This document shows, piece by piece, positions 1 through 59,523 of a DNA stretch of 64,000 bases (position 1 is its first letter; every line of letters begins with the position of its first letter). Both the position numbers and the translations under genes were made by a program. The notes below the pieces were generated by a model, which was not told where the DNA came from, did no database searches, and saw only the letters and a list, made by a program, of their open reading frames with translations. Location of the stretch: NCBI RefSeq assembly GCF_029227915.1, contig NC_079885.1, positions 27,653,001 to 27,717,000 of the forward strand. The letters are read 5' to 3'. Origin of the DNA: Hydractinia symbiolongicarpus (lineage: Eukaryota > Cnidaria > Hydrozoa > Anthoathecata > Hydractiniidae).

Positions 1-1907
1 ACTTTATTAAAAAATTAAGATAAATAAGTCATTTTTTCCCGTAGGACCAACCCTAGCCGTTAGTTCGCGCTGAAGAAATAGCAACAGTTTCAAAAATTAT
101 ATTTCATTGACTTTCTAACGATGTTAGTCCGTTTGAGTTACAACGTTTGGTTCACATATTCGTAGCAACATGTATTTAGCGATAGTATTCGCATATTACT
201 AGGTTCCATCGCTTTTAACAGTGAAACATCAGACTGTGGGACTTAATTGAACTGATTTTCGACTTTGACCTTATAAATGCGGTAAATGAGCCAGTTTGAC
301 TATAAGAAATAACATCCTTCTTAATTTCACATGATTGCTGGAACTCAGCGATTACACTGGGCGCTGTGGTAGCACTTTATTAAAAAATTAAGATAAATAA
401 GTCATTTTTTACTGTAGGACCAATCCTAGCTGTTAGTTTGCGCTGAAGAAATAGCGACAGTTTCAAAAACTACATTTCATTGACTTTTTAACGGTATCAA
501 TCCGCTTCAGTTACAACAGTTGCGTCACATATTCGTACCAACATGTATTTAGCGATATTCTTCTGATATTACTGGGTTGCATCGCTATTAACAGTGAGAC
601 GATTGACTGCGGGACTTAATTGAACTAACTTTGGACTGTGACCTGATAAATGTGATAAATGAGACAATTGGACACCAAGAAATAACATTCTTCTAAATTT
701 GACGTGATTGCCGGAACTCAGAGATTACATTGGTCGCTGTGGTGGCGCTTCATTTAAAAAATTTAGATAAATAAGTCATTCATTACTGTGGGACCAATCC
801 TAGCCGTTATCGCGCGCTGAAGAAATAGCGACAGTTTCAAAAACTACATTTCATTGACTCTCTAACGGTATCAATCCGCTTCAGTTACAACAGTTGCGTC
901 ACATACTCGTACCAACATGTATTTAGCGATAGTAATCGCATATTACTAGGTTCCATCGCTTTTAACAATGAAACGTTTGACTGTGGGACATAATTGAACT
1001 GATTTTGGACTTTGACCTTATAAATGTGATAAATGAGACAATTGGACACCAAGAAATAACAATCTTTCTAATTTGACGCCGGAACTCAGCGATTACATTG
1101 GGCGCTGTGGTAGCGCTTCATTTAAAAATTTAGATAATAAGTCATTTTTACTGTGGGACCAATCCTAGCCGCTAGCGCGTGCTGAAGAAATAGAGACATT
1201 TTAAAAAACTCCATTTCATTGACTTTCTAACTGTGTCAATCTGTTTGAGTTACATTGGTTGCGTCACACATTCGTACCAAAATGTATTTACTGATTTTTT
1301 TCCGATATTACTAAGTTGTATCGCTTTTAACAGTGAAACGATTGACTGTGGGACTTAATTGAACTGATTCTGGACTGTGACCTTATAAATGTAATAAATG
1401 AGCCAATTGGACTCCAAGGAATAACATTCTTCCTAATATGACGTGATTGCCGGAACTCAGAGATTGCATTGGTCGCTGTGGCAGCGCTTCATTTAAAAAT
1501 GTAGATAAATAAGTCATTCTTTACTGTGGGACCAATCCTATCCGTTGTCGCGCGCTGAAGAAATAGCGACAGTTTCAAAAACTACATTTCATTGACTTTC
1601 TAACGGTATCAATCCGCTTCAGTTACAACAGTTGCGTCACATACTCGTACCAACATGTATTTAGCGATAGTATTCGCATATTACTAGGTTCCATCGCTTT
1701 TAACAGTGAAACGTTTGACTGTGGGACTTAATTGAACTGATTTTGGAATTTGACCTTATAATTGCGGTAGATGAGCCAGTTTGACTATAAGAAATAACAT
1801 TCTTCTTAATTTCACATGATTGCTGGAACTCAGCGATTACACTGGGCGCTGTAGTAGCCCTTTATTAAAAAATTAAGATAAATAAGTCATTTTTACTGTA
1901 GGACCAA
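1..1907. repeat. Satellite array, left block (about five monomers of 365-374 bp)
   Basis: Tandem monomers begin near 1, 374, 747, 1114, 1485 and 1858. The same internal landmark (GAACTGATT or a variant) recurs at 255, 628, 1002, 1367 and 1740, giving periods of 373, 374, 365 and 373. Each monomer carries GCGCTGAAGAAATAG, a TGTATTTAG stretch and a GGAACTCAG block. Divergence between monomers is visible but modest. No reading frame is conserved, so this looks like satellite DNA rather than a gene family. The block stops abruptly where the LINE begins, and its phase resumes on the far side, so both blocks were once one array. Confidence 0.95.
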
Positions 1908-1941
1908 GTCTAAAAAAGTAAAAAAAAGTAAAAAAGTAAAG

Positions 1942-4900
1942 ATGGCACTGCGGTGTACGGACGTGTTCCGCCACCTCTTATTACTTGTTGTTATATTTTC
2001 TGTGAAAAGGCCTACTTTTACATCAGCTGGACCTGCAATTTATGATATTATGGATACAAATACTGGTTTTACTACGGAATCGTTTGATTTCGTGCAAGAT
2101 TGTTATTACAGTTCATCTTTGTGGGTTTATAAACAGAATCACATTTATAAACTTAATCTTGATCTCAGAGAAACGACTTGGTTACTTTTAATACTTGCCG
2201 GGGACGTTGAAATCTGTCCGGGTCCTAATTGTGGCGCTTGCTTGAATAATATAAAGCATATTAAACAAAAGGTAACATGTATTGGATGTACTCAATTTTT
2301 TCACAAAAATTGTATCAACATAAAAGATTTTATCACAACATCTCTTTGCACTCAATGCAGACTCAACCACGACGGGGGTCGAACTAAAAATGACACTATT
2401 AACTCCTTTTCAGAAAAGCGTGGTTTCAAACTTCTTCATCTGAACGTCAATGGCTTGTTTGGAAAAATTGACCAAATCCGGGACATGTTATTCAGTACTA
2501 GAAAAAACATTCACATATTTGGAATAACTGAATCTCATCTAACTGAAATAATTCCGGATTCACTAGTTTCAATTGAAGGATACCGTACTGAAAGGAAAGA
2601 TCGAAAAACAGGAATTGGTGGTGGTGTTATTGTTTACATTAGAGACGATCTCAAATGGCAACGTAGATTTGACTTGGAGAGTGATATCGAATCCGTAGTT
2701 GTAGAAATCTTTGTAGAAAAGTCCAAATCTTTTATCGTTTGTGTCATGTACCGACCCCCGGATAGTTCATTACATGGTACAAAAAATTTCGAAACTTGTC
2801 TTAACGACTTTTTGACAATTAGCTCAACGGAAGATAAAGAAACTTTACTACTGGGAGATCTTAATATAGATTATAATAAACGCAGTGATCATAAACAATT
2901 AAAAGACCTATTTGTTATTGTGGGTCTCAACCAACGCATCAAACAGTTCACTAGAGAAACGGAAAGTTCAAAAACGATAATTGATGTAATTTTTACCTCG
3001 CATCAAAACAATGTCAAAGAAACAATAGTTCTACCATTAGGGATCAGTGATCATGACTTAATTGGTGTAAACAGAAAAATAAATGTCAATCGCTATGTAC
3101 CTCGTAGAATTAAAATTCGAGATTATAAAAATTACAACGCAACTCGTTTTAAGGATGATATGAAAAACTCTGATTGGGATTCTATTATCTTTAAAGATAC
3201 CATGAATAAAAGCTGGGATGCATTTAAATCAAGAATCCTCGAAATCATTAATATTCATGTTCCACTCAAAGAAATATCTATTCGAGGAAAGTCGTGTCCG
3301 TGGCTCTCTGGTGAAATTAAAACAAAAATGAGAGAAAGGGACCATTTTTTGAGAAAAGCAAGGAAATATAACAACAGTTTTGACTGGGAAAGCTATAAAA
3401 GAATCCGTAATAAAGTCACCACTCTTATACGTCAAAGTAAAAAGAAATATCACCAAAACATTTTTACTGAAAACGTAAATGATTCTAAAACATTTTGGAA
3501 TGAGATTAAAAAGGTTTACCCGGTTAAACCAAAAAAAGGTGTTAGTAATGTTATCGATGTTGATGGATGCTTAATAAGTAATAAATCGAGGATAGCTGGT
3601 TGTTTCTGTAAATTTTTCTCAAGTATCGGTTCCAAACTTGCGAATACTATTACTTCCATTGGTGATCGGAGATGGATGTATTATGAGTCGAGCAAGCTTT
3701 CCCTTAACAAGAATATGTCAGTGTTCAAATTTAATGCAGTTACTCCTGATTTACTTAAAAAACGACTAAAGAAACTGAAAGTGGCAAAAGGTGCCGGTCC
3801 GGATGGAATACCGCCTCGTCTCATAAAGGATTGCGCCGATGAAATTGTACTTCCATTATGCTACCTAATTAACTTGAGTCTTCGGTCTCATACGTTTCCA
3901 TCGGCTGAAAAAGTAGCACGCGTGACTCCAGTATACAAATCGGACGATAAATCAAAACTTGATAACTATCGACCAATTTCCGCGCTAAATGTATTCTCGA
4001 AGATTATTGAACAAATTGTACATCACCAACTGTACAATTATCTAGAAGAAAACAACCTTCTTCAATGCCAACAATTCGGAATTCGTAAACAGCGATCTAC
4101 GCAACAAGCGGTGTCATTGTTTGTCGAAACTATTCGCAAAAATGCAGATAAAGGAGAATGCACTGGGGCGATTTATCTCGACTTGCGAAAAGCCTTCGAC
4201 ACTGTGAACCACTCGCGGCTTTTACACAAACTCTAACTTCATGGCATCCATGATATCGAGTTGCAGTGGTTCGAAGATTATTTATTCAATCGTACCCAAT
4301 ATGTCACATACGATAACATAAATTCATCACCTCAACAGATTACTTGTGGTGTACCCCAGGGTTCAACCCTGGGTCCATTACTATTCCTTCTACTCGTTAA
4401 CGACTTACACCAATTACTAAGTAAATCGAAAGTACTTTTGTATGCCGATGACACTGTTGTATATTACTCATCAAAATCGAGCAAAGAAGTTGAATCAGTT
4501 CTTAATAACGAAGTCCAACGTATTGCAGACTGGATAAATGAAAACTGTTTAATAATAAATCTTTAAAAGGGAAAGACTGAGTTTGTCATGTATGGATCTC
4601 ATCAAAACCTACGTAAACAGGAAGCATGTACCATCAAGATAAATGCTACGTCCATTAACAAAGAAGATAATTATATCTATCTGGGGGTTAATCTGGACAA
4701 CCATCTGACACTACAGGAACATCTCAACACAACGTACAAAAAGGCATCTGGAAAGCTCAAATAACTCAAAAGTATTCGATATCTTTTGACAGCTGACATA
4801 GTAAAATCGGTTTATAATACTGTTATCCTGCCGAATTTACTTTATTGTTATCCAATAATGCTGTCTTTATCGAGAACCCAGGAAGACAAGCTACAATATT

Positions 4901-5223
4901 TACACAATCGAGCGTTTAAAATTTGTGGTGGTACCCATCAATGGGATTCTATTGCAACAATCAAGAAACAAAGAGCTGCGGTTGAAGTTTTCAAAAGCAT
5001 CAATGGCATCACTGAAAACCACTTCAATTTCGAGCAAATCAACCACACAATGAATACTCGAAGAAATCAATCAAACATCAAACTTGGCCATCTTAGGACT
5101 GAATTCGCAAGAAAATCTTTCGGTCATCAAGGTGGTATGATTTTTAACGAATTACCAACTGTACTGCAGAAAGAATCATCATTGTTTTTATTTAAAAGAA
5201 GCATTAGGGTTATTAAATTTTAA
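1942..5223 (+). pseudogene. LINE polyprotein (2A-like, PHD finger, endonuclease, RT), three nonsense codons
   Basis: One frame runs from ATG 1942 to TAA 5221-5223, broken only by in-frame TAA at 4234, 4564 and 4762. Residues 1-30 look like a hydrophobic signal segment. Residues 87-95 read GDVEICPGP, a 2A-like motif. A C-x2-C...C-x2-C-x4-H-x2-C...C-x2-C PHD-type finger covers about residues 97-139. The endonuclease follows, with LHLNVNGL, TESHL, GDLNIDY and SDHDLIG motifs. RT motifs are LDLRKAFDTVNH, GVPQGSTLGPLL and the catalytic YADDTV. The protein would make LINE RNA-templated copies in the nucleus. The three stops truncate RT before, within and after its catalytic core, so this copy is unlikely to be active. 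Confidence 0.9.
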
Positions 5224-36049: not shown

Positions 36050-36520
36050 TTACGTGTATTACAGTGTGTTACTAAGTATTACAGTGTCCAAATACTACAA
36101 AATATTACAGTTAGATGTTACTAAGTACTACAGTGTATTACCGAATACTACAAAGTATTACAGTGTATTACTGAATACTACAAGGTATTACAGTGTATTA
36201 CTGAATACTACAAGGTATTACAGTATACTACTTATTACAGTATATTACTAAATACTACAAGGTATTACAGTGTATTACTGAATACTACAAAGTACTACAG
36301 CGTATTACCGAATACTACAAGGTATTACAGTATATTACCGAATACTACAAGGTATTACAGTGTATTACTGAATACTACAAGGCATTGCAGTGTATTACCG
36401 AATACTACAAGGCATTACAGTATATTACCGAATACTACAAGGTATTACAGTGTATTACTGAATACTACAGAGTATTACAGTATATTACCGAATACTACAA
36501 GGTATTACAGTGTATTATTA
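36050..36520. repeat. 30-bp minisatellite, left block
   Basis: About fifteen units of TATTACTGAATACTACAAGG followed by TATTACAGTG, with point variants. Apparent ten-residue peptide repeats in all frames follow from the 30-bp period and are not taken as coding. Confidence 0.95.
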
Positions 36521-36750
36521 TTATTATTATTATTAAACATATATTTGGCATCCATAATTTACAAATGGTTCTTCTGCCTACAAAAAAATAAAAACTATAA
36601 AAATCTATAAAATCTATAAGATCAGTGAAAAAATATATTGAATCTAAGTGCATAATGAAATAAATGGGCTCACAGAGTACGAAATGGTGCCGGTAGAGTA
36701 AGTAGACACATTCAACAAGAAAAAAAAAAAAAAAAAAAAGAAGAGACTAA
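36512..36750 (-). mobile_element. 5'-truncated non-LTR retrotransposon tail inside the minisatellite
   Basis: On the minus strand about 200 bp of 3' UTR-like sequence ends GCCAAATATATGTTTAATAA and continues as a TAA repeat. The other boundary is an A-run (T-run on the minus strand) with GAAGAG. It separates two blocks of the same minisatellite. The TAA tail resembles that of the LINE at 1908-5560, but the body is a different family. Confidence 0.65.
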
Positions 36751-43945: not shown

Positions 43946-45260
43946 TATCAGTTGATGTTTGTAATAAATAAGATTCACTCTACATTGCACCATGCGGCAA
44001 GTTTCAGACAGTTAAAAAAACACGTGACCTTGGACATGTGTCGCTTCCTGAATGAAATATAAACGAAACAAGGCTTGATAAAAATCGAACAGAAAAATGT
44101 TTCAGTACGTTTTACTACAAATAAATTTATTACAATATAAAATAAAACTAAAAAATGGACTCGTTCCTCATCTAAAAAATAAATAAATTTCATGAGAGAA
44201 AGTTAAAAATAGAAATAACAAAAGATAAATATATCCAATTGTATAAAGTACCGTCTCACCTTACAAACTGATTGTTGTTTTTCAAAACAAAATCATTTGA
44301 AATATTTACTTCGTCCTGTCCTGAAAGATAAAAAGATTTGTTATTTCAAAGTATAGCTACTTAAGTATTAGAACAGCCATCGCCATGGCCATGTCTTCTA
44401 AATGAGAGAAAATCTGTCAATTTGTTCATAAAATCCTTTAACATCGTGGCATTCTTATTTTAAATGTTTTAAATATCTTTTATTTTAAATATTTTCACAT
44501 CTATATTATTTAATTCATGCTAACAATAATAACATTCAATTTCAGAAGATATAAAATAAAAAACAGTCTGGGTACGAAATTGTATTTTTACTTCTTCTTT
44601 TTTCTTATAAAATTCATTATTTTTAATTTCGTTATAATATATACTTATCTCTTACAGTATCTCCTCTCATTATTTTTACATACATAAAAATTAATGCTGT
44701 CAGAATTATTAACAGCTATAATAATTCACTATTTTTTATTAAAAATACTTTCTACTTTGGACTGTCACAATAATCTACTTGACAACCTCAACATTTTATT
44801 CTTAAGTATTTTATTCATTTTATCCAATTTGTTATAAAAAAATATTTTTGACATTCAACATTTTATTCTTAAGTATTTTATTCATTTTATCCAATTTGTT
44901 ATAAAAAAATATTTTTGACATTCAACATTTTATTCTTAAGTTTCTTAAATTTAGATTCATTATATCCTTCAATTTGTTAATTAGTTTACTTCACTCAAAT
45001 AAAAATCATCCATTCTTTTATTATTGCGAATCATTTCATTCGTTTTTTAACTTTCATTTATCATCATTATTATCAAATTAAAAGAAATAAAAATTCATTA
45101 TTCTTTCTAATTTATTAACTTTTAATTTCTTCGCACCAAAATTTAAAAAAAAAAAAACATTCCATACCTAAATATTCATTTAAACATTTATTTAATCCTT
45201 ATTATTTTCAAATTAAAATAAAATACAAATTTATTCTTCTTATAATTTATTTAAATAAAC
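43946..45260. repeat. Very AT-rich stretch with a 66-bp tandem duplication
   Basis: CAACATTTTATTCTTAAGTA followed by TTTTATTCATTTTATCCAAT is present in two full copies and one partial copy at about 44787-44945, period about 66 bp. No coding sequence is recognised. If the ankyrin exon upstream is spliced onward, its next exon would lie here or further left, but none is evident. Confidence 0.7.
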
Positions 45261-45754
45261 TTAATAACTTACTTCGTATTCTTTTATTTTTCGTCTTATT
45301 ATTTCCCGGTTTTGTTCATTCGTCCATCCTCCAACACAATCATAAGCTGTGTTTCCCTTTTTATCTTCGATCGTCAGATCAATATTTTTATGACGTAACA
45401 AAACATCAACACATGAGATGTTACCATACATTGCAGCCCAATGTAATGGTGTGTAGTTGAGAACATCTACACGGTTGATGTTTGTTACATCATGTCGACA
45501 TAACATATCTAATATTGAGTGACGACCCAAAAATGCAGCCAAATGATAACTGTTTTGTTTCCCACTATCTTCCGCCCAAACATCACCGCCATGCGAGATG
45601 AGTATTTCCACCATTGATGTATTGTTGGTGCAACATACTGTCCACAACAATGGTGTGCGTCCAACTACATCTCTCATGTGAACGATGTTTGGATAAATGG
45701 ATAGCAATTTTTTCAGCTTCTCGATATAGTTAGATCTAATAATATCCTCGATAT
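45261..45754 (-). CDS. Exon 6: ankyrin repeats
   Basis: The acceptor ATTTTTTAG joins exon 5 as DIEDIIRSNYIEKLKKLLS. Ankyrin repeats follow: GRTPLLWTVCC, NSYHLAAFLGRHS, YTPLHWAAMYGN, GNTAYDCVGG. The frame ends YEVSY and TAA at 45261. GAA/GTAAGT at the very end also makes a strong splice donor, so a longer isoform with more repeats is possible; no such exon was found to the left. Confidence 0.85.
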
Positions 45755-48700
45755 CTAAAAATAAAATAATACATGAATAAAAATTATAAATTTATAAATT
45801 AATGAAACATGATAACGAAAAACTTATGACATCATTAAATACTTTTTTTATTGTAAAACATTTTATAATGTATTAAACATAAAAAAAGTAATTGTGAAAA
45901 CACAGAAACAAAAAATATAGTAATAATTTATTTTTATTCAAGTTAATATTAATATGTTGACGTCATCATGTATAGGATAATTTGCATCAGGAGAAAATTA
46001 TTTTACTTGTATGAACCACGGAAATGTTTCAGTTAAAGTCGAGACCCAAAATTTTTCTTAAAATAATTTCACATGACATTTTTAATAAAAATCTCGGAAG
46101 TAAATATAGGTATTTCTACAATCACTACGATAACATAATGCGTTTTTATAAAAGAAACCAACCTAGTCTAACACTTTCGTCCCCAGGGATTTTTTATCTA
46201 TTTCTTATGCGGGAAAATAACAAAAAGATAAATCTGGGCTAGATCTGGAAACGAGGCTGGATAGACTGCTTATTTCATGAATCTTCAATTAGCTTTTTAA
46301 AACAAATGAAAAATTTTACCAAATATTAGTATTGTCTAATCTAGCACTCTTGTCCCTAGGGATTTTTTTATCTATATGGCATGTGGGAAGACGGCGATGA
46401 ATCCCTAAAACCGAGGCTGGCTAGTATGCTTATTCCATGACTTTATTTAGTTTCTTACGAACAAAGAAAAAACTTCACTAAATATTAATATTGAACAAAT
46501 AACGCTTTTTCAGATTGTATGGAGAAAATTGCAAGACAGAGCATAATCTCAAGCACGCAAAAAGAGTTTGTTAGTTTTTTCAGTTAAAGTTCTAAAAAAA
46601 AATTAAAATTACACAGCTCTTAGTAAATAATCCGTTACTTATGAAAAAAAATGTAAATAAGAACCAGCTACTGCTTTTATCAAAATTAAATTTTCTCTCA
46701 CCTCACACGACCAGGTTTTATCAACATTATTTGTTGAATGAAACATATTCGTTTTGGTTGAGTATAATATAGATAAAAATAGAACAAATTGTACGCAATA
46801 TATTCGATTTATTCTGCGCGAATATTTCAAAGATTGTTTTTCGACACGCGATCGGTTTTTTATAAGAACAAGTTCTAAAGAACACGAGACTTAGGTACAC
46901 AGCTCTTAGTAAATACTCCATTAATTGTAAACGGGTTTCTCATGAATAAAAATAATGTATAATAAAAACTAGCTACTGCTTTTATCAAAATTAAATTTTC
47001 TCTAACCTCACACGATCAGATTTTATCAACATTATTTGCTGAATGAAACATATTCGTTTTGGTTGAGTATGATATAGTGATAAAAATAGAACGACTGTAC
47101 TCAATATATTCGATTTCGTCTGCACGAACATTTCAAAGATGTTTCTCTGACACGCGATCGGTTAAAAACTGTGTGGGTTTCTTTATAAGAACAAAAAAGA
47201 GCACGAGCCTTAGATATTGCAAAAATTCAAACTCAACAGCTTTAGGAAAAAATTATTGTTAAAACAAAAAACCAACCGAGTCTAAATTTTACGATGAAAT
47301 GACTTTTGATTTGCTTATGATTGTTTTTTTCCCGCCGGATGGTTTGTATTAGCAATAATTTTTAAAAATTGTGGGAAACTTGAAAACGAGGTTATTCATT
47401 ACTATATTGTAACTAACTTGAAAAACAGGCTTTCCCTCTGCAAATTTCTAATGTAATTTTTACAAAAATCAAATTACATAGAAACGAGGCTGTAGTCGTT
47501 ATAAGAGTTTTGCTGTTAATAGTACGCCATGCGAGTTACAGTGAGAAATCGCATCATATAACATTGACCAACTTTGTACAAAGTGATCAACTTCAGGAAA
47601 GCCACTTTGTATGGAACAGTAAAGTGGTACGAGGCATCTTGCTTGAAAAGTATTCAGCAAAATTTAAGTATGGCCGAGAGCCACATGTTCAAAAACGAAA
47701 GGTAAATGTAAATAGTGTTTCCGAACTTGGTGCAAAATTCGGTATGTTAAGCCAGCTTTAGAGTTTGTGTTGGAGTAAAATAGAATCTATGATGTATATT
47801 TACAAAATATGCGCTTTAAATATCAAAATCAACTGCCTAACACTAACTCAGACTCACACGCTACACTATAAATTTGGGGAGTTTGTTCGTTCTAATCAGA
47901 ACAAGGAAAGAAAAAAGCAGTCTAAATTTTACAACGAAATGATTTGATTTGCTTATGATTGTTTGTTTTCACTCACCGGGTGGTTACTATTAGCAATATT
48001 TTTCAAATGTGGGTAACTTGAAAACAAGGCTTTTCATTACTAACTTGAATAACAGGCTTTTCCCTCTGCAAAGTCCATATAACATAGAAACGAGGCTGTA
48101 GTCGTTATAAGAGTTTTACTGTAAATAGTGCGCCAAGCGACTTACAGGGAGAATTTGCATCATACAACATTGTCCAACTTTGCACAAAGTGATCAACTTT
48201 CAAATTATTATGCGAAATTTAAGTATGACCGAGAGCTAGCTACGGGTTCAAAAAGGAAAGGCAAAAGGGAATAGTTTTTTTAAACTTGGTGTGAAATTTG
48301 GTATGTCAGCAATGTTGAAATATGTGACGCTCACTTGCTATCTTTTATTTAGTTGTGAACCGGTGGTTCCATTATTTTATGTTAGAACTGTCACGTCGCG
48401 TTTTTATTCTCTACGTTTTTCTGTGATCAGCTTGTTTTATGAGAGTACTCTATGAGTGAGAAACTCTGTGTGTCTGTTTTTATCAGGTTATGGGCCCAGA
48501 CACTTTTTAATGTTATATCGAGTACTGAAATAATTTTGTTTTGTTGAATTTGATTTTTACGATGGCAACTGAAGACGCAACTTTCAAAATTGAGAAGCTG
48601 ACTGCTGAAAATTATCATTCATGGAAATTCAACATGAAAATGTATTTAATCGGAAAAGATCTTTGGGAGATTGTAACCGGTGATGAAACCATAGAGGATG

Positions 48701-51700
48701 ATATGCAGGAGGCTGAGAAACGTCGAATCAAGAAACGCGAGAACCAAGCGTTTGCCGCCATTTGTTTGGGAATTTCAACAAACTTACAAATTTGCGTTCG
48801 CTCCACGAAATCGGCTAAGGAAGCATGGGAAAATCTTGAAAAACATTTTCAGCAAAAAACACTTTCAAAAAGGATTTTCTATCGGAGAAAATTATATTCA
48901 GCAAAGATGGCTAGAGGTCAAAATATGACTGAACACATAAACAACATTAAGACATTGTCAGAACACCTGGAAGCGATTGATGATGCTATTGCAGAAAAGG
49001 ACCTAGTTATTCTTCTTATTAGTAGTTTACCCGAAGAGTATAACTACTTAATAACGGCGCTTGAAACAATTGCTGAGGACAATCTAACCTGGGATTATGT
49101 TAGGGACAGGCTTATTCACGAAAGCGAAAAGAAAAAGCCTGCTGAAGCTGAAACTTCTGGTGATGCCCATTTTTTCGTCAAAGCCCAACAACAAGAAATC
49201 CGGTAAATGTCATTACTGCAAGAAACCAGGACATTATGCTCGTGATTATTTTAAGAAGAAAAGTGACCAGAAGAAAGAAAACGCAAATCTCGCTAACGAT
49301 GATCACGATAATGAACTAGCTCTGAATTCCTCTGAAGTAAACGAGGATAAGTGGTGGATTGACTCTGGTGCTTCTTCTCACATGACCCATAATTTGAAAA
49401 GCTTAAGAGACTATTCGAGTTTTGAAACGCCGATAAAGGTAAAACTCGCCGATGATCACGTGCTGAATGCTTTCGGGAAAGAAAATGTACATTTGACCAT
49501 TTTGAGCAAAAATGAAAAGGTCAAAACTGTGCTACACGACGTACTTTACGTGCCGAAGATCCAAAACAAACTGTTCTCTCTATCTTACCTAACCGAAAAG
49601 GGAATCGATGTGCAGTTCAAAGGCAAGGATTGCGATATCACCAAGGAGGGGAAGCAGTATAATATTGGACATAAGTACGGTAAACTTTACAAAGTTAACG
49701 CGATAAAGCCACGAAACGAGGAAACGTGCTGTATCGGGAAAACAATCAAACAGGATTCTATCGAGCTGTGGCACCAACGATACGGTCATCTGGGATACGA
49801 CAACCTCAAACTCTTAAACGATAAAGAGATGGTAAATGGCCTGAATATCGATACCAAGGGAGCCGTCGATCGAATCTGCGAAGGATATGCAATGGGGAAA
49901 CAGCATCGCAAATTATTCCCAAAGAAATCGCAAAGCACCACAACCAGATTGCTCGAGCTGATTCGCAGTGACGTGTGTGGACCGATGGATGTACCTTCAG
50001 TGGGAGGTTCCAGGTACTTTGTGACTTTTATAGACGATTTCTCAAGATACACTACTGTCTACATGATGAAGCAAAAGTCTGAAGTGGTTGAAAAGTTTGG
50101 GCAGTTTGTAAACCTTGTTGAAAATCGCACTGGATTGAAAGTCGAACGAATACACGTGGAGAACGAAACTATAAAACGCCTTTGCTCAGATGATGGTGGT
50201 GAATACTTCTCAAGGACTTTGACGAATTCTGCAACAATCGAGGAATTCAACGTGAACCGACCATTCCATACTCTCCACAACAAAACGGAGTTGCTGAACG
50301 CATGAACCGCACCCTACTGGAAACTGCACGATCAATGCTGCATCACGCAAAGAAACCCCTAACCTATGGGCTGAAGCTGTATCTACTGCATCCTACACAC
50401 GGAACCGAAGTCCTACTGCTGCACTGAAGGGAGCAACGCCCTATGAACTTTGGCACGGTAAAAAGCCTGAAATTAGTGGTCTGAAAGTGTTTGGCTGCAA
50501 AACGTACGTGCATATTTCTGAATCAAAACGTAATGGAAAACTCCAGAAAAAATCGTTTCCATGCGTTTTTGCTGGATACCCTGCGAACGAAAACGGGTAC
50601 AAACTGTACAATCCTGAAACTAGACAGATGCTTCGAAGTCGTGATGTCATCTTCGTAGAGAACGCTTTTGACATCGAAAAATCGGACAACGTAACTCACG
50701 AATTTTTCACTGGAACATTCAGAGAAGCTGAGGCAGAAGCTGAAACGGAGCAACCAGGAAACAACATCGGTGAACCGCAAGTCGCTGTCGAAGAAGATGC
50801 CAGACCACAACGAGCAAGGAGACCACCTGACAGACTGAACGTTCTGACAGGTAATTGGTGGAACCTGATGGAGGCGGCATCGGTCGCAGCTATGGACACT
50901 GAGGAGCCAACGACCATTGAAGAAGCTTTGAGCGGTGTGAACTCAAAGCTATGGTCTGAAGCACTTCGTAATGAATTTAATTCGCTGAAACAGAACCAAA
51001 CCTGGGACTTGGTTGACTTACCCGCCGGTAAGAACATTGTTGGAAGTAAATGGGTCTTTAAGCACAAACGTGATGCTAAAGGCGAGATCACCCGGTGTAA
51101 AGCTCGTCTTGTTGCACAGGGATACTCTCAAAAACCCGGTGTCGACTATGACGAAGTTTTCTCACCTGTCGCAAAGTATAGTTCTATTCGTACTGTACTA
51201 GCCATTGCCAATCAACTTGATTTAAACCTCCACCAAATGGATGTTAAAACAGCATTCCTAAATGGAGATCTCGAGGAAGAGATTTTCGTTAAGCAACCGG
51301 AAGGCTTCATCGACAAGAAACATCCGAACAAGGTTTGTCGATTGCGAAAGAGTCTCTATGGCTTGAAACAGTCTGCACGGTGCTGGAACAAAACCATCAA
51401 CGAATACCTCAAGGAATCAGGATACATACAAAACGATGCTGACCCTTGCATCTATCTCAAACGATTCATCAAGGACGGACAGGAAGTTATCCTCCTTATT
51501 GCTGTATACGTCGACGACCTGCTGATTGCATCAAACAACGACAAAGAACTCCTCTCCGAAGAGAAACAGATAGGTGAACGTTTCGAAATGGGTGACGAAG
51601 GGGAAGTTCACTACATTCTTGGGATGGCCGTCAAACGAAACCGTAAGGATGGGGTACTTACAATCGACCAACACGCGTTCTTATCATCTGTGCTGAAACG

Positions 51701-54700
51701 ATTTGGAATGGAAGATTGCAAGCAAGTAGCTACTTCACTCTAACCCAACACAAAGTTCAAAAAGCTGAGTGATGACGAAGAACCAGTCAATCTGAAAGAG
51801 TACCAATCTGTCATTGGATGGCTGACGTACGCATCGATTGGGACCAGACCAGACTTGTCCGCTGCAGTTGGAGTGCTTAGTCAACACATGCAAATGCTAC
51901 TACGATTTTTGAAGACAACCAAGGTGCAATCGCTTTTGCGAAAAACCCCGCATATCACTAACGAACAAAACACATTGACATCAAGTACCATTACATACGC
52001 GACGCTGTCTCGACCAAGGAGATTAAGCTGAAATACTGTACAACACAGGAAATGATTGCCGATTTACTGACAAAGGGACTCCCTCGACCACAGTTCGAGA
52101 AGCTTCGCTTAGAACTTGGAGTGACCAAGATACATTGAATTTGAATTGACGAAATGACTATCGTGACGGAGTGACCGTCAAGTGGGAGTGTTGAAATATG
52201 TGACGCTCACTTGCTATCTTTTATTTAGTTGTGAACCGGTGGTTCTATTATTTTATGTTAGAACTGTCACGTGCATTATATTACGCACATTTTTTTTATT
52301 CTCTACGTTTTTCTGTGATCAGCTTGTTTTATGAGAGAAAAAGTACTCTACGAGTGAGAAACTCTGTGTGTCTGTTTTTATCAAGCAAGCTTTAGTGGTT
52401 GTATTGGAGTAAACTTGAAGCTTGAAGGTACATTTACAAAATATACGCTTATAATCGTTACAGCCTGAAATGTTCCTTATTATAACATGTACCGGTAAAA
52501 GTAGTTTTTATTTTGTTATTCATTTCAAAGATTCATAAAAACATTTGCGATTGATTCTGCTAAAATTTCTTTTTGTCAAATGTATTTCTCTCGGGATTAG
52601 AGAGAAAATTGGTGTTTTAGTCTTGCCGATGTTCTTATTTTGTTTTCTTTTCCCAATCCTCATTGTTTGTATTGCTAAACGAGTTCGCCAACTAAATATA
52701 TCTGAGCATGCAAAGTTTTGTTTGTTTTGATTTTGCTTTGAAAAATTCGCTTCCCCGAAAAGTAGAAATATTTTATAAAATATCTTTTAACCGATAAGAA
52801 AACTGTTTATTTAGAATTCAAAATAACTATCCGGTTTTTATTACCAGAAAAGTGCTTACATTCAGAATGTTAAATTGGTCACATGTTTTTTTTTGTTTCC
52901 CGTGAAAATCAAATAGATATTTCGCTGGTAATTAGCCGCCGAATTCGCTATTCCCAATTCGCTTCGTAAAAATCCCTCTTTTGCAGGTAAATGTAGGTCT
53001 CAAAAGGACGTTCTCACTTTGCATACACTTGTGGAGCAGTTTATCTTTGCTTTTTTAACTATGCCCAGCAAAGTACGATATAGCCATAAATAATGCGTGG
53101 TTTGAATTTAAATTTTAGGGATTTGCTCTGACATTTGTTTGCGTCTAAACTTTCGTTTGAGAAAAACTGAATTAGATGTCCGAGAAAAAAGCTTATCTAA
53201 CTAGGCTAAACTACACCAGAAATTATGCAGAAAATATGTATTACTTTTAAATTATAAATAATCTATGCTAAACAAATGATTTGAAAAAATTGAGCAACCA
53301 CGAGATAGTAATAAAATTAATGGCAATATTTGAACAAAATTTTTCTATTGACAAAGCTTGAAAACTTTCTTAATACCAAGTGAGAAGTTTTGTATCACTT
53401 TTATTGACACAACAGCAACATCAGCGCACTACATTTTAGCGGAAGTACTTTTGCCTTTGATGTTTTGTTACTCCAAAGCCTCCTTTTACGATATATATTA
53501 CCAATGTGCAGAGTAGCTTTATTTTTACTTGATAACACTTAGTTTCTCTTAATTAATGTCATATGACCGAGAAACAAAACATTGTCGAAATTTTACAAAA
53601 GGAAAACAAAAACGTCTAATAACCTCTTACGTTTTTAGCAAAGATCTGTTTTAAAAGCAACACCAGATGGAAAAAAAATTCTTAAAAGGTTCTAGGACTA
53701 AATTCGTTTCAGACAATAGTGTCATTAAATTGACTTTGCGTGTCCCATGGTATAAGTACAGTAATGAATTAAATGTTTAACAAATAATTAGAATAATTTG
53801 TTTGTTGTAATATGGGTAACGAAGAAAGGAAATATTTAACTATTCCGCATTCTTTTTGTAACAGGTAAATAACAACATGAACAACAAAATTTTTTAATAA
53901 ATGTTAATTTTTTTAAATCACACAATTAGTCAACACTTATTTCTGTCTATTTTGTCACGCTAATTTTTTTATGCCTATTTTGTGACAAAGAGTGTTGTGG
54001 TGATTTTCTAGCTTAAAATTATGCTGATAAAACGATAACTATTTCTCTTACCTTCAAATTGGAAACCCATGACGTTTGGACGTCTAAAAAAATTGAGCAC
54101 ATGTTAATATTCCTGAAGCCTGACATACTTTTTAACACATGGCTATAAAATGTTTTTAATAGAAGTTGAATATAATCTTACTCGTGACGATAAGACACAA
54201 TGCTGTCATCAGATACACCAAGATGATTTTTAGCAACAACACAAAACTTGCACGTTTCACCAATTTCCATGTCATCAACGATGTATTGATTGCAAGAAAT
54301 GTCAGTTGCTAAGTTATTCCAGGTTAAACTTTTACTTTCTTGTCTACTAACGGTGTATTTATTAGCGTGCTGTTGCCATCTCAATATACATGATGTACTT
54401 GACAAATATGAGCAAATTATATTGCTCACTTTTCCAGGAGGATAAAGGCTAAAATTATTAATATTGCATTTATATCATATTTTTTAACAAAACTAATGAC
54501 TTTTACTTAATAAAATAAATTAAAAGATGATCAAAATTTTGTCTAATAATTTTTTTTTATTTTCATGCTTAGCAGCAGGTTAACATTTTTAACATCAAAA
54601 AACTCTTACAATGTTTTTATTAAGTACAGAATAGGCCCTGACACATATGTCGTGATTTTTTTTCCTCTCTAGAACAAATTTCACAAAAGAAAGGAGAGAG

Positions 54701-57700
54701 GATTGTGAAATGATCACACGTTAGTGATCTCGTGAGAGTTTTTTATTTTAATATAACACAACCATTACCATCCAATTCTTTAATATGAATCACTAAATTT
54801 AAAATTTTTTAAGAACTATTCAGAAGAGAATTTGTTCTCTATTGTTTAAAAATTTTACTTACTTTTTCCTAACGATCTCGTGCGCATTTAGGCGTTCAGC
54901 CGTTGCATAAAAACCAACATGTTCCAAATCTTTTATCATTTCTTTGAATTTCCAATATTGTGGTTTTATGTTAAAAACTATTTTATTGTTACTTTCCATG
55001 GACTTTGTGAACGGTATTTCTGTATCTTCATCGTTTGAGACTTCTACATTGTATTCAACCAAATGTTCAGCTAACAGTTTACTGATGATATGACCAGTTG
55101 ATGATTTTACTGTATCTGATTGGTAAACGTTGGACGTTGAAACAAGGACCAGATTTTGTGTTGCTCTGGACATTGCTTCTAACGTCAAATGTTTTAACTT
55201 GCAATCATTGCTTTCAATTATACAGATGCATTCGGCTGCTTCAACTCCACGACTTCCCTCAATAGTAGTGAGCAGGTTATAAGTTTGACTCTGTAAGGGA
55301 TTTTTAACTGTGATATCATCACAATTTAAGACTTTCCAGTCAGTGTACTTGTCGTAGCGAAGAAAATCAATTTTTAACAGTTTCAGTAATCTGTAAAAAA
55401 TATCCTTTTGAGGGAATTTGTTATATATGAACAAACGGTTAGTGGCATGATGTAAACATACATCTTGTAAAACAAGTGCTAACATTGGTATAAACTCTTT
55501 GTCTGTTGTTGGAGTTTTTGCCGGATGTATCAATAACGGTTTTGTTCCTTCGATATTATGACCGATTGAATACGCTGTATTAAATTTTAATGAAGTGTCA
55601 ATTCTAACATTACCCGAAAGATCCTCATCTGGTATGGAAGCTGCAACGACATCAATATCAACCGGTGTTTCAAAACTTTCTTCTTCTCCTTTTATTATCG
55701 GCGTGACATTGCTACTGGTAGTTTGTCCTTGTTGTTGCGGTGGTGGTGGTGGTTGCTGCTGCCGCTGCTGCTGTTGTTGTTGTTGTCGCCGTTGTGGCTC
55801 TCGCTGCTGTTGTGGTTGTTTGGTGGACATTCCTTCTTTTGATTGCTGATCGGGAAGCTTCATTGTTACCTTGTCTTGTTCTACTTCATTTTCAAAAGCC
55901 TTTAAAAACTGAAAGATTATCCGGGTTGTTCTCATTGCTCTGTTCAATTTTAAAACTGTCATTCCTGTTTCTTCATACTTGTACTTGTCATGTATTGTGA
56001 CTCTTTGGTGTGAAATTAATGTTCTATGTTTCTCAATGGAATGTGGGAAAAAAATGATGAAAGAGTTATTTAATTTGTCTTCAGTTTCCAGATAGTGTTT
56101 AAGCAAAGATGATTCTTCCTTGTTAAATAACTCTCCATTTAATTCATCAATTATTAGATGCAGGTTTTGGTCAACATGTTTCTTAACCAATGACTCTAAT
56201 AACTGGTATGGTGTTGGCACTTCATTCATTTTCAAATCCTTAGCTAACTCGACATTATCCTTTACAACAACTTCGACAGCGGCTTTGTAATTAAATCTTT
56301 TAGTATGATTGGCAATATCCCGTTTAAGCAATGTGTTGCCGTCCCAAATAACGTAGTATATGACCGATCTATTCTCAGAGCGCTCGTAAGCTATTTCCAA
56401 ATGTGCTAAAGCTAGCACTGTCTTACCACTGCCTAGAGGACCGATTATAATTTTTTTTAAAGAGTTGTTGTATAAATGACGGAGTTGCTGTGGAGAAAGT
56501 ATTAACGAGCTTATTTGTTCGTGGACGTTTTTACTGAGTGAAGGAACAGAAAATAGTGCTTTTCTTGTAGCCATAAAACACATGACTTTACCAACTATGT
56601 TGATATACCGTTCCTTGTTGTCCTGAACATTATTTTGTACTTGTGAGCTTTGCAAAATATTTGAAAAGAACTTCGTCATATTTCTATCCTCAGCCAAAGT
56701 TTTTTTGGAGAGTAAGTTGCAGTCTACACAAAGGTGGATATTTTCGATATCTTCGAAATGTGGTGCAGCTACAACATTAACCATTGTCAGGTGACCATTT
56801 TTAAGATATTTTTTAGTGATGATAGATAGCTCCTTCAAGTCTTCTTCGCCCGCTTTGACTTCATCTTGTAGTCTTACTGCGTCGGTTGTTTCTGTGTATC
56901 TAATGTTGACGATATAATTTGGCAACACAAGTAGAATTCTTTTGTTATCAGTAATTGTGCTTTCCAAACTCAAAGAAAATTCTTTATCCAGTTTTAGAAA
57001 TCGAATATGTTCCTTCGTGTTATAATGAGTAAATATTGTAAACAACCGAGGTTGTAATTCGATTATAACATCCTTTATCTTTTGTGCGAATAAGGAATGT
57101 GTGACTTTTGGCATTGGGGGTGGAATTTGGAGTGGTTCTTCCATGCATTTACCATTGACGGTGAAATAACGCTGGATGTAATCTCTTTCAAATGCTTCGT
57201 ACTCCTTAGGTTTCATTGTTTGCAGGCTACCACCACATATAAATTCAATATTTGTTTCTTCTCTTTCTGCTCCTACAATGCATTTTATCTGTTCAGATAT
57301 TCTTCCACTGTTGTGGGTTCTAACATCAAAATAGCTGGTTGTACACTTATGTGCTCGGACCAGTGCAATATCTAATTAAAAAAATTATTTTACTTTGCAA
57401 CATTTCTACTCAACTAATTTTAATCTAAAGTGCTGTACAAAACAAAGCCCTAGAGACGTTAAATTTTTTGTGTAGAATACTAAACATTATTTTTCAAGAA
57501 TCTTTGCAATAATTTTTATATATTTTTGCGTTCGCATAGCCAAAGTAAAATTTTTGTCGAGGGAAGTGGCTTGCATCGTTGAAACGATTGCTATTCTAAC
57601 AAAATCTTGACAATGTTTTTTTTTATGGTTCGAATAATGTTTTAAATAAACCCTTAAGATTAAATTTGTTCTACTTGTCAATATAGCTTTCCCAACTTCT

Positions 57701-59523
57701 TTTACTTGTGCTCTGCCCCCATGCACAGCTACATTAGTAAGTAATGTATTTTTTTGTTCTGTTTTGTTTTTATTGTTCCAACTCCTTATTCATTTTTTCC
57801 GTACTAGATAGAATACATTATCTAAATTTACTCACCTTCAATTGGAATCAAATGAGTTTTACTTTCACTGTCAACTAACGTAACTGATAACCCATTAATC
57901 GATTTGGCAATGTGATTGTAAATAATCAGGATTAGTGTCCCTTCTTCTTCTTCCACAATGTAATCGTTGTCGACATGAAGTTCTTTTGATTCTATCGCAA
58001 AATTTTCAGTAATGATGACTTGTACACTTTTCCTAGACCAGTGGGAGCAGCCATCTTCAAATTGTATTAGAAAATCTCCTCGGAAATTTTTTAATAGTAT
58101 ATAACTAAGAAAAACATTAAAATTTAAATTAGAATAATAAGTAACTGTATGAAATATTGTCCTAAAAAACAATAAAATCTTATTTTCTGAAAGAAAGGTA
58201 TCTTCTTTCTAGGCCGTTTTAAGTCAATAGTGTTTAAGTGACAAGATTTTGAACGACACGATGACAACAAAGGACTTTACTGTTCCCATTCCGTCTTTCA
58301 ATCATAATTGTTTTGAATGTTCCTAACTCCGTTTTGAGTTTTTTTTACATCAACTTGAATATAAATAGTCCATTCTTTAAGTTATTTAGATTTTACTTAA
58401 TGTTGTCTTTGTTTTTATTTACTTTACATTTTTGTATTTCGATCAGTGCTGTCATAATTTCAATCTGCTGTACTCTTATCGCTGATGACTCTCCTATGCA
58501 TTGAAATCATTACAGAAAAGTGATTTAGTTACACAAAGATAAAGTTGAATTTAATTGAATGGTAATTTATTTACTTTACCATATTTGCCTTTTATGTTAA
58601 GTTGACAGAATTAATTTAATGATGGAACAATATAGAAAAAGAATTACACACCTGGGTTGTTCTTTTATAGTTTCTTCCAACTGAGAACTCTTCTGATCAC
58701 ATGATGATGAAGAAATAGTTTGCTTTACTATTTCCACTTCGGCTGCTAATCGATTATAATTCTCTTTATTCTCTTTAATACCACCTTTGTTTTGCTGAAT
58801 ATTGTCTTTATTTGCTTTGATGTCATCTTGATTTTGTTTAATACCATCTTCGTTTTGCAGAATATTGTCTTTATTTGCTTTGATGTCATCTTGATTTTGT
58901 TTTATATTTTCTTGGTTGTCTTTTTGATTAAAATATTGAATTTCAATCTTTGCTTTTATAACTTCGATTTTAAATAAGTCTAAGTCATTCAAGCAACCAG
59001 ATTTCAAATCTTTAATTTTCGTTATGTCGTATCCGAGTCTTCTTAATATACCTTCTATGGCATTCCATAGCTGATTATATTGTGCTGAACTCATTGCTCT
59101 TCCATGCATAACATTATTGCGCTCATTTCTGATTCGAATGATGTCAGCACCGACACTGAAATCATTTGGTTGCGGTGTTCTGGTCCTCCATCCACCAATT
59201 GGTGCTTGTATACCGTGACAACAATTAATTAGAACGTCACATAAAATAGTGATGTCAAACAATTCCGAATCTGTTTCCTTATCTTGCGGAAAAACGATTT
59301 CCAGCTGATCTCTTTTCAGATGGTTTAAATGTTTCTTATATTTTTTCAATGACAAATATAAATGTTTCTTATCCCTTGGCATGTTGCCACGGGCATGATC
59401 ATGTAAAATTTCACGTAAGTGGTCACAACATTCATTGAGAAGTGTGACCAATTTAATTTGATATTCATTGTTAGTGATCAATGCGTGGTGAGAAGATCCT
59501 GTTGGAGGTACTGCTGTTGCCAT
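45261..59523 (-). CDS. HEPN - SF1/Schlafen-like helicase - FN3 - ankyrin protein, six exons (about 1480 aa)
   Basis: Six exons join with matching phases: 59523-58652, 58104-57836, 57371-54863, 54448-54182, 54083-54052, 45754-45261, totalling 4443 bases (1481 codons with stop). Domains in order: DZIP3-type HEPN (about residues 15-190, motif R135-N-x3-H140), coiled coil (about 200-270), an unassigned beta-rich segment (291-380), an NTPase module with Walker A GPLGSGKT (691-698), LIIDE (786-790), poly-Q/P insert (about 898-930), helicase-C-like TIEGSRGVEA (1083-1092) and EAMSRATQNLVLV (1112-1124), FN3 (about 1217-1305) and three to four ankyrin repeats (about 1325-1480). HEPN RNxxxH domains are often RNases; the helicase module resembles the Schlafen/DUF2075 group. 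A cytoplasmic nucleic-acid or pathogen sensor is my inference. Every junction is GT-AG and no lesion was seen. Confidence 0.88.
46160..46258. mobile_element. MITE of the CCTCGTCCCCAGG family, copy 4
   Basis: CCAACCTAGTCTAACACTTT is followed by CGTCCCCAGGGATTTTT, and the right end reads GGAAACGAGGCTGG. About 100 bp, in the last intron of the HEPN-helicase gene. Confidence 0.55.
46333..46430. mobile_element. MITE of the CCTCGTCCCCAGG family, copy 5
   Basis: GTCTAATCTAGCACTCTTGT and CCCTAGGGATTTTTTTATCT parallel copy 4; the right end reads AACCGAGGCTGGCTAG. Confidence 0.55.
46611..47213. repeat. Tandem duplication, 286-bp unit
   Basis: ACACAGCTCTTAGTAAATA starts at 46611 and 46897. Both copies carry CTACTGCTTTTATCAAAATT, GAATGAAACATATTCGTTTT and GACACGCGATCGGTT in the same order, with small indels. 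Intronic, non-coding. Confidence 0.9.
47278..48312. repeat. Tandem duplication of about 600 bp, second copy split by copia
   Basis: Copy 1 (47278-47830) and copy 2 (47923-48312, continuing at 52389-52470) share TTTGCTTATGATTGTTT, AACGAGGCTGTAGTCGTTAT and AAGAGTTTT, CAAAGTGATCAACTT, a TTTAAGTATG-CCGAGAG block and TACATTTACAAAATAT. The copia element interrupts copy 2 within CAGCAAGCTTTAG. Confidence 0.85.
48313..48485 (+). repeat. Copia 5' LTR (173 bp)
   Basis: From TGTTGAAATATG to TTTTTATCA. It lacks a GCATTATATTACGCAC segment and an AGAAAA segment present in the 3' LTR. Confidence 0.92.
48486..48501 (+). promoter_or_regulatory. Copia primer-binding site for half initiator-tRNA-Met
   Basis: GGTTATGGGCCCAGAC lies directly after the 5' LTR. 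Fourteen of these bases are complementary to the anticodon arm of eukaryotic initiator tRNA-Met (CTGGGCCCATAACC), the internal priming mode known for Drosophila copia. Confidence 0.85.
48562..49206 (+). pseudogene. Copia Gag (UBN2-type) N-terminal part
   Basis: From ATG 48562 the frame reads MATEDATFKIEKLTAENYHS, the usual start of copia Gag with the Y-x2-W motif, and runs through the retrotrans_gag region (ENLEKHFQQKT, ALETIAEDNLTWD). It goes out of frame just before the zinc knuckle and stops at 49206; the knuckle continues in the next frame. Gag would form the particle shell. Confidence 0.88.
49097..50305 (+). pseudogene. Copia zinc knuckle, protease and integrase, frameshifted
   Basis: The frame carries a CHYCKKPGHYARDY knuckle whose last Cys is Tyr, the aspartic protease WWIDSGASSHMT, the integrase HHCC region LWHQRYGHLG...CEGYAMGKQ whose last Cys is also Tyr, and the catalytic core from RSDVCGPM to SDDGGEYFS. 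An indel near 50255-50275 shifts it out of frame; TIPYSPQQNGVAERMNRTLL follows in another frame. Both Cys-to-Tyr changes fit a TGT/TGC to TAT transition. Neither enzyme could be complete. Confidence 0.88.
50487..51743 (+). pseudogene. Copia reverse transcriptase
   Basis: The frame begins inside the integrase C-terminal region (FGCKTYVHISESKR), passes a variable acidic linker and contains the RVT_2 reverse transcriptase: WVFKHKRDAKGE, KARLVAQGYSQKPGVDY, QMDVKTAFLNGDLEEEIFV, SLYGLKQSARCW and the YVDDLLIAS catalytic box. It is the best preserved part of the element. TAA at 51741 interrupts it before the RNase H; the same frame continues PNTKFKKLSDDEE. The start shown is not a native start, since Pol is made as a polyprotein. 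Confidence 0.9.
51744..52138 (+). pseudogene. Copia RNase H remnant
   Basis: RT sequence resumes as YQSVIGWLTYASIGTRPDLS and breaks near 51893. The RNase H tail restarts as EDNQGAIAFAKNPAYH, stop, RTKHIDIKYHYIRDAVSTKE and ends ADLLTKGLPRP...VTKIH. The first part of RNase H is deleted. Confidence 0.85.
52189..52383 (+). repeat. Copia 3' LTR (195 bp)
   Basis: Preceded by the purine tract AAGTGGGAG. TGTTGAAATATG to TTTTTATCA, 22 bp longer than the 5' LTR because of two segments. Confidence 0.92.
52471..54051. other. Intron sequence of the HEPN-helicase gene
   Basis: AT-rich; no exon in phase with the gene model and no repeat was recognised. Confidence 0.5.
54052..54083 (-). CDS. Exon 5: 32-base micro-exon
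   Basis: Bounded by TTTTTTTAG and GAAG/GTAAGA, it reads ERPNVMGFQFE between the FN3 exon and the ankyrin exon with correct phase on both sides. It was found only by phase matching, which strengthens the six-exon model. Confidence 0.75.
54182..54448 (-). CDS. Exon 4: fibronectin type III domain
   Basis: One symmetric-phase exon codes about 89 residues: YPPGKVSNI start, SCILRWQQ with the conserved Trp, an internal W and Y, then the GETCKFCVVAKNHLGVSD strand-F/G motif. All are typical of FN3. It follows the helicase directly and precedes a 32-base exon. FN3 domains next to an intracellular ATPase are unusual in animals. Confidence 0.85.
54863..57371 (-). CDS. Exon 3: P-loop NTPase / helicase module
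   Basis: The acceptor TTTTTTTAATTAG opens the exon and the frame continues from exon 2 as DIALVRAHKCTTSYFDVR. The ATG at 57216 is internal (residue 433). Motif I GPLGSGKT, motif II LIIDELN, a LKLNRAMRTT block, and late motifs TTIEGSRGVEA and MSRATQNLVLV follow the order of UvrD-like and Schlafen-like helicases. A 500-residue region upstream of the P-loop shows no clear domain. The donor is AAAAA/GTAAGT. No stop or frameshift is seen. Confidence 0.88.
55723..55821 (-). repeat. Poly-Gln/Pro codon repeat inside the helicase
   Basis: CAG/CAA-rich sequence encodes runs of Gln with Arg and one PPPPP between the two halves of the NTPase module (residues about 898-930). It probably forms a disordered linker and may vary in length between alleles. 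Confidence 0.85.
57836..58104 (-). CDS. Exon 2: unassigned beta-rich segment
   Basis: An acceptor TTTTTCTTAG and donor GAAG/GTGAGT bound 269 bases. The frame joins exon 1 as a Ser codon and exon 3 as Asp. It contains GDFLIQFEDGCSHW and alternating hydrophobic strands ending SVTLVDSESKTHLIPIE. The pattern suggests a small beta-sandwich, perhaps immunoglobulin-like, but I cannot name the family. Confidence 0.8.
58652..59523 (-). CDS. Exon 1: HEPN domain and coiled coil
   Basis: Starts at ATG 59523 (MATAVPP). A possible acceptor (TTATAG) 11 bases upstream suggests a non-coding first exon. Codes residues 1-290 plus two bases. The HEPN core carries GWRTRTPQPNDF and IRIRNERNNVMHGR. Residues 209-250 are two copies of a 21-residue repeat (QNQDDIKANKDNI plus eight more residues), equal to three heptads each. 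The donor is CAG/GTGTGT. Related HEPN domains occur in DZIP3 and in many invertebrate NACHT proteins as N-terminal modules. Confidence 0.9.
58774..58899 (-). repeat. 63-bp in-frame tandem duplication in the coiled coil
   Basis: Two 21-codon units differ at three or four codons (LQNED against QQNKG). The period of 63 bp keeps frame and heptad register, so copy number could vary without breaking the protein. Confidence 0.85.

Follow-up and report, generated by a model that had tools for sequence, protein, structure and literature searches.

The stretch of the Hydractinia symbiolongicarpus genome analysed here (64,000 nucleotides of contig NC_079885.1, positions 27,653,001 to 27,717,000, referred to below as the window) carries on its minus strand a gene that raises the question of whether a cnidarian has built a receptor of the NOD-like receptor (NLR) plan around a helicase-like motor of superfamily 1 (SF1), and of what its C-terminal ankyrin repeats may recognize. 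What emerges is a variation on the NLR-like plan whose motor is unusual and in which the evolution of the recognition exon is very surprising. We consider it probable that the gene belongs to a lineage-expanded, receptor-like family whose switch is not a signal transduction ATPase with numerous domains (STAND) and whose ankyrin repeats are directed at variable targets, likely in a setting of defence or non-self recognition.

The window gene is real. Seven minus-strand exons with GT-AG borders and matching phases splice into 1481 codons, and the product (1481 aa) is identical to the NCBI model LOC130614732 of H. symbiolongicarpus. An earlier note on this DNA, made from the sequence alone, had joined six exons into one frame of 1480 codons; its five junctions are indeed GT-AG and in phase, with no internal stop, but the seventh exon was missed, and the reading continued beyond the last splice donor as far as an intronic stop at 45261 (exon 6 ends at 45273 and exon 7 spans 44320-44306). 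The NCBI protein ends in EYEDRTK, versus EYEVSY in the six-exon reading. The possibility that the HEPN, motor and ankyrin exons are separate genes is ruled out by the identity with the NCBI model, by a same-strand ankyrin exon found downstream at 51 of the 54 motor loci of the genome, and by the intron-free family member P0009. The latter presents the whole domain order in a cDNA-like sequence, its 1475-aa frame lying on a contig of 4575 bases, which is what a spliced transcript would give, and is 91% identical to P0010.

The order HEPN, coiled coil, alpha/beta region, SF1/Schlafen-like motor, fibronectin type III (FN3) domain and ankyrin repeats is supported by Pfam, aligned motifs and fold matches, in agreement with the HEPN, motor, FN3 and ankyrin order claimed previously. 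The HEPN and ankyrin assignments are secure. Exon 1 (58652..59523) encodes a HEPN_DZIP3 domain (residues 60-179; E 1.3e-19, 70.9 bits against a Pfam cut-off of 27) and the start of the coiled coil; the catalytic-type RNxxxH motif, correctly reported for the window protein as R135-N136-x3-H140, was found in all 13 HEPN-type proteins (P0002-P0014) out of the 23 family members. Ankyrin repeats start at residue 1323 of the window protein (Ank_2, E 5e-15) in exon 6 (45273..45754). The FN3 domain of exon 4 (54182..54448) is weak in this protein (fn3, E 0.014), and 17 of the 23 family proteins have it at E<=0.1, with 2.8e-7 as the best value. Across the 23 proteins, Pfam matched ankyrin repeats in 18, HEPN in 12 and TIR_2 in two. 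Exon 5 is a 32-nt micro-exon (54052..54083) recognized by its GT-AG borders, phase and identity to the NCBI protein.

Between the HEPN domain and the motor sits the tandem repeat of the coiled coil, built of coding 63-bp (21-aa) units with Ile-x2-Asn-x3 heptads (58763..58914, minus strand; Tandem Repeats Finder rows 58763-58906 and 58763-58914). Its length differs among paralogs, with seven Ile-x2-Asn-x3-Ile units in the window protein and 112 in P0002, and Ile at position a with Asn at position d is a trimer-type coiled-coil pattern. Exon 2 (57836..58104, residues 291-380), placed by the splice check and identity to the NCBI protein, matched no Pfam family, and the same holds for the initial 280 residues of exon 3. 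A sequence search of solved structures gave no convincing relative of the HEPN part, and the NCBIfam and PADLOC scans returned weak or ankyrin-type matches only.

Exon 3 (54863..57371) was interpreted from aligned motifs and an AlphaFold model as an alpha/beta region (residues 381-660) followed by an SF1-type N-lobe, a Q/P-rich insert (about residues 881-945) and an SF1-type C-lobe. The Walker A sequence GPLGSGKT (residues 691-698) is intact, as the earlier note had stated, and is followed by DE at residues 789-790, motif V from residue 1083 and motif VI from residue 1112. In a by-eye alignment, SF1 motifs Q, I, II, III, IV, V and VI occurred in this order in 23/23 family proteins, and motifs III-VI kept the order and spacing of the UvrD type (P-Q-S-I-E-K-H-R; L-x4-R-T-x3-I/F; G-S/A/C-R-G; M-S-R-A/V-T). 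At codon 824 the window copy, alone among the 23 proteins, has His in place of the motif III Gln, which the other 22 retain. Furthermore, in the moderate-quality AlphaFold model of the exon 3 region the VIA fold matches were HelD, UvrD, Rep and PcrA, and the best Foldseek matches were SLFN11 (773 columns, E 5.5e-10) and SLFN14 (768 columns, E 2.0e-9), with a TM-score of only 0.21-0.22; SF1 helicases and Schlafens thus top the fold-match lists. The designation SF1/Schlafen-like is supported by the ordered motifs and the fold of this moderate model, not by Pfam or HMM-HMM (hidden Markov model) scores, and on the same grounds the claim of such a motor at the place where NLRs have NACHT or NB-ARC finds support.

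Judging from substitution patterns, purifying selection acts on the motor and the HEPN domain of those copies that were tested: across eight loci the ratio of nonsynonymous to synonymous differences (pN/pS) was 0.38 for the whole motor, with values of 0.32 for its N-lobe and 0.26 for its C-lobe, and HEPN showed pS 0.052 and pN 0.010 over 180 codons (four loci). The ankyrin exon, by the same kind of evidence, behaves as a hypervariable cassette, with diversifying selection centred on predicted contact codons, and this combination of a conserved motor and HEPN with diversified ankyrin contacts is what would be expected were the ankyrins the part in contact with the variable target. Twenty predicted contact codons were set beforehand from the design of designed ankyrin repeat proteins (DARPins), using repeat positions 2, 3, 5, 13 and 14, which we take to be those randomised in DARPins. 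The randomised surface positions of DARPins make up the paratope (PMC8683736; this and the other papers are cited here from excerpts).

For 14 of the 18 proteins with ankyrins (P0009, P0010, P0011 and P0017 were dropped from this test and from the identity test below), the 20 contact sites had a mean entropy of 2.16 bits and the other 145 sites one of 0.33 bits (p 7.8e-14). The hypervariable codons include residues 1346, 1347, 1349, 1357, 1358, 1380, 1381, 1383, 1388, 1391, 1392, 1415, 1417, 1422, 1425, 1426, 1448, 1449, 1451 and 1456, and additional fast sites were noted outside the fixed set, at repeat position 10 and in the first codons of the exon. Within 19 of 20 loci (L033 was dropped as a near-duplicate of L032), contact codons gave pS 0.116, pN 0.434 and dN/dS 5.13, compared with dN/dS of 1.40 in the rest of the ankyrin exon, 2.21 for the whole exon and 1.51 for the FN3 exon, and none of 5000 random 20-codon sets reached the observed contact pN. 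The intron upstream of the ankyrin exon had a mean identity of 95.0% (20 loci, 190 pairs). P0003 and P0004 are 97.2% identical in the motor but only 77.4% in the ankyrin part. The pair P0009-P0010, with 95.2% motor and 96.4% ankyrin identity, speaks against a general rule, and the diversification is therefore not found in every lineage. Adenine-directed mutagenesis, as by diversity-generating retroelements, was rejected as the leading idea because all four bases occur at the third position of the variable codons, so that the changes are not specific to adenine, and selection at the amino-acid level suffices. Nevertheless, a dedicated mechanism aiming diversity at the contact codons may exist.

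Ankyrin identity did not follow motor identity: over 91 pairs (Spearman 0.06, p 0.57) it was 79-81% both where the motors agreed at 30-50% and where they agreed at 90-100%. When 14 further ankyrin exons were compared (eight from TIR loci, three from effector-less loci, two from helical loci and one accompanying a 57% motor), the 152 HEPN-TIR pairs gave pS 0.035 and pN 0.059 for the rest of the exon and pN 0.456 at the contact codons, the same as for the 171 HEPN-HEPN pairs (pS 0.043, pN 0.059 and contact pN 0.434). The 180-bp intron flanks of the exon are 97.5/90.2% identical within the HEPN type and 75.8/67.4% between HEPN and TIR genes; the motor, compared for one pair (the window versus a TIR locus), is synonymously saturated (pS 0.735, pN 0.387). 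Among the proteins listed, the last exon tracks the motor clade, being DRTK in P0002-P0006 (in the window, exon 7 at 44306..44320 encodes these final codons and the stop) and ARKK or RRRR elsewhere. Since introns, motor and last exon have diverged but the ankyrin exon is alike, the similarity is confined to the ankyrin exon, and exon-limited conversion or exchange would be the simplest account. A hidden pool of ankyrin pseudogene donors was also considered and rejected: 42 of the 46 near-full-length exons (>=70% identity) lie <=20 kb downstream of a motor and four are not near one, three partial matches at 72-73% being left uncounted. We advance tentatively, as a serious possibility, that dozens of deeply diverged HEPN, TIR and helical genes draw their ankyrin sensor from one pool of near-identical exons maintained by exon-limited conversion, in which a DARPin-like paratope is diversified one codon at a time and coupled to an SF1/Schlafen-like switch in place of a STAND ATPase.

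The extent of the family was assessed by scanning the assembly that contains the window (76 contigs totalling 480.9 Mb) with the exon 3 protein as the query. This resulted in 57 matches, one stop being present in each of three, which after merging of three split pairs correspond to 54 motor loci (a lower bound), most of them on contig C2. The upstream module is HEPN at 36 loci, TIR at eight and helical at three, and none was found at seven. Loci were paired by position and strand, with a HEPN, TIR or helical exon <=12 kb upstream and an ankyrin exon <=20 kb downstream; the pairing took in 53 of 109 HEPN matches, all 14 for TIR, 17 of 20 for the helical module and 65 of 120 for ankyrin, and because weaker matches were omitted, the seven loci may hide uncounted effectors. 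Identity is low, 32-47%, for some of the HEPN matches. By identity to the motor of the window, 23 loci, each of them with HEPN, reach >=92%, another 11 range from 47 to 64% and the other 20 from 32 to 40%. The eight TIR exons, found with a single query, are all upstream of 38%-class motors. The helical module (P0016, residues 115-198) is death-domain-like by eye, without Pfam support (best DUF7222, E 0.035-0.062). A tripartite plan of effector, NTPase and repeat tail, with effectors swapped among the 54 loci, is therefore present, and its recurrence at so many loci goes well beyond coincidence. Two profile searches beyond Hydractinia, in which the 7999 most word-sharing candidates were scored, returned seven same-family members each.

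Two further observations concern related exons elsewhere in the assembly. On contig C15, near 10.55, 10.74 and 11.33 Mb, ankyrin exons (56-58%) have the helical N-terminal module at a distance of 8-13 kb on their upstream side, where the exon 3 scan gave no motor match, perhaps reflecting a different middle domain. Contig C1 holds about fifty more ankyrin exons, 39-44% identical to that of the window, possibly a second ankyrin family.

The proteins are probably intracellular; no membrane or secretion part was noticed, none having been searched for. In the mechanism that we propose, the C-terminal ankyrin cassette would bind a variable protein target, and the binding would release or drive the SF1/Schlafen-like ATPase module, after which the Ile-x2-Asn-x3 coiled coil, or the motor itself, would bring the N-terminal modules together. 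In the window gene, the clustered HEPN domains would form a dimeric RNase that cleaves RNA of the host or of foreign origin, and in the sister genes TIR would act in place of HEPN. Both ATP gating and RNA cleavage are suggested by the conserved motifs. Conversion or exon exchange would keep the ankyrin exon alike while positive selection diversifies its contact codons. The likely setting would be defence against intracellular parasites, or non-self recognition. The term immune sensor, used in the earlier note, gains indirect support from effector swapping and from diversifying selection on the contact codons, with the immune trigger itself presumed.

Hydractinia is a colonial, fusing animal, and a role in allorecognition has to be weighed, in which the cassettes would tell the animal's own cells or stem cells from foreign ones and set off cell death, like fungal HNWD/NLR genes upon fusion. 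The known allorecognition genes of Hydractinia encode cell-surface Ig-like proteins, which counts against this role. The evolutionary regime is the same as that of fungal NLR repeats, which evolve in concert while the concave face of their ankyrins is under positive selection (PMC4986451, PMC2873952). However, the paralogs of a single genome differ at nearly every contact codon, which indicates a repertoire and not a single polymorphic locus, and we regard allorecognition as rather unlikely.

It is also conceivable that the motor is the sensor, detecting foreign RNA or DNA like Schlafens and RIG-I-like receptors, with HEPN cutting and the ankyrin repeats serving as a decoy or as the target of a parasite inhibitor. 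The SLFN11 and SLFN14 fold matches agree with this, as do the coupling of a tRNA nuclease with an SF1 helicase-like domain in SLFN11 (PMC9482658) and the fusion of metazoan HEPN to RNA-sensor helicases via TRADD-N (PMC8195603). Such a role appears unlikely, as the motor and HEPN are conserved in the copies tested while the ankyrin contact sites diversify.

On a third view, the P-loop module would be a STAND/NACHT NTPase that has diverged, and the protein an ordinary HEPN-NLR with ankyrins; here several results weigh against the SF1 assignment preferred by us. The N-lobe alone resembles STAND NTPases (HMM-HMM match to NACHT, E 8.5e-5, probability 60), NPHP3_N matched weakly in 7 of the 23 members (best E 0.012, Pfam), no Pfam SF1 family was above cut-off in the family proteins examined, and the HMM-HMM comparison with UvrD gave E 0.012 over 27 columns only. 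HEPN-NACHT proteins are, moreover, common in cnidarians (PMC8260672). For lack of a sequence-profile match the module is named SF1-like and not an SF1 member. On the other side stand the UvrD-type motifs III-VI in their order and spacing and the fold lists headed by SF1 helicases and Schlafens, and Pfam listed no NACHT or NB-ARC match in the window protein or the 23 family members. The P-loop region, on whose fold the earlier claim depended, thus gives a divided outcome, with SF1 fold matches and ordered motifs in favour and a NACHT-like N-lobe in HMM-HMM comparison against, and an ordinary HEPN-NLR seems very unlikely to us. The solved-structure sequence search with the exon 3 protein and the family profile produced low-complexity or chance matches only; a UvrD scan of viral contigs found two loci, used as comparison material only. 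Finally, assembly error, pseudogene decay or neutral drift under relaxed selection is a most improbable source of the ankyrin differences, for even if some near-identical copies could be haplotype duplications (L032/L033) and three motor matches carry a stop, 0/34 ankyrin exons contain stops, neighbouring introns are about 95-97% identical within the HEPN type yet contact codons differ at nearly half their bases, and amino-acid change is far above synonymous change.

Among known systems, the animal HEPN-NACHT proteins (cnidarian NLR-like) share an N-terminal DZIP3/hRUL138-type HEPN in multidomain, lineage-expanded proteins and have both HEPN and TIR as partners (PMC8260672, PMC3710099), but in Hydractinia the middle NTPase is SF1/Schlafen-like instead of NACHT, and the tail consists of FN3 and a hypervariable ankyrin cassette. 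Fungal NLRs with WD, ANK or TPR repeats similarly combine swappable effectors, an ATPase and a repeat tail, with a concave ankyrin face positively selected alongside concerted evolution (PMC4986451, PMC2873952). In the fungi it is the repeats of one gene that resemble each other, their number being variable, whereas in Hydractinia the whole ankyrin exon is alike between deep paralogs and the middle module is not STAND. Bacterial proteins with HEPN and an SF-I helicase (e.g., with transglutaminase and Vsr) also unite both in one polypeptide with a proposed defence role (PMC3710099), but they have other partners and no ankyrin tail, and the likeness meant here is one of architecture. The long Schlafens SLFN5/11/13/14 combine an N-terminal part of RNase type with an SF1 helicase-like domain at the C terminus (PMC9482658), and their Foldseek matches extend across most of exon 3. 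They differ in that the Hydractinia nuclease is HEPN, the SWA(V)DL Schlafen linker motif is absent (0/23 family proteins) and FN3 and ankyrins are added. The ankyrin repeats of RNase L bind 2-5A. This animal protein likewise combines ankyrin repeats with an HEPN-superfamily (KEN) RNase, but in another domain order and with a kinase-like domain in the place of the motor (PMC3710099, excerpts). Searches of open-licence PMC papers turned up no description of the Hydractinia domain order or of such a cassette.

If the proposed reading is true, animals have built the NLR-like receptor plan on a second, unrelated motor type, and an antibody-less colonial cnidarian has a germline repertoire of hypervariable ankyrin binders comparable to a natural DARPin library, a kind of recognition repertoire previously undescribed in animals. 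Hydractinia is commonly used as a laboratory model, and it becomes testable what a non-bilaterian animal recognizes inside its cells and how paralogs of great age can keep one exon alike in all but its contact codons.

Within the gene, intron 5 owes its length of 8.3 kb to a Copia-like retrotransposon that sits in it without being a part of the gene (48313..52279, plus strand, i.e., opposite to the host gene). It was delimited by open reading frames, which are interrupted, and by short direct repeats at its two ends (48313-48396 and 52189-52272), whose 84 bases agree at 99% and which extend to about 91 bases; the name Copia follows our by-eye reading of motifs and is presumptive. No Rfam or tRNA match was found in the 64-kb window. 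Outside the gene, a long plus-strand frame at 1882-4236 and 4765-5223 shows, by eye, endonuclease and reverse-transcriptase-like motifs of the non-long-terminal-repeat (non-LTR) type, and an open frame at 36125-36610 consists of a short tandem repeat (VLQCITEYYK/TTRYYSILPN-type) and is probably a satellite.

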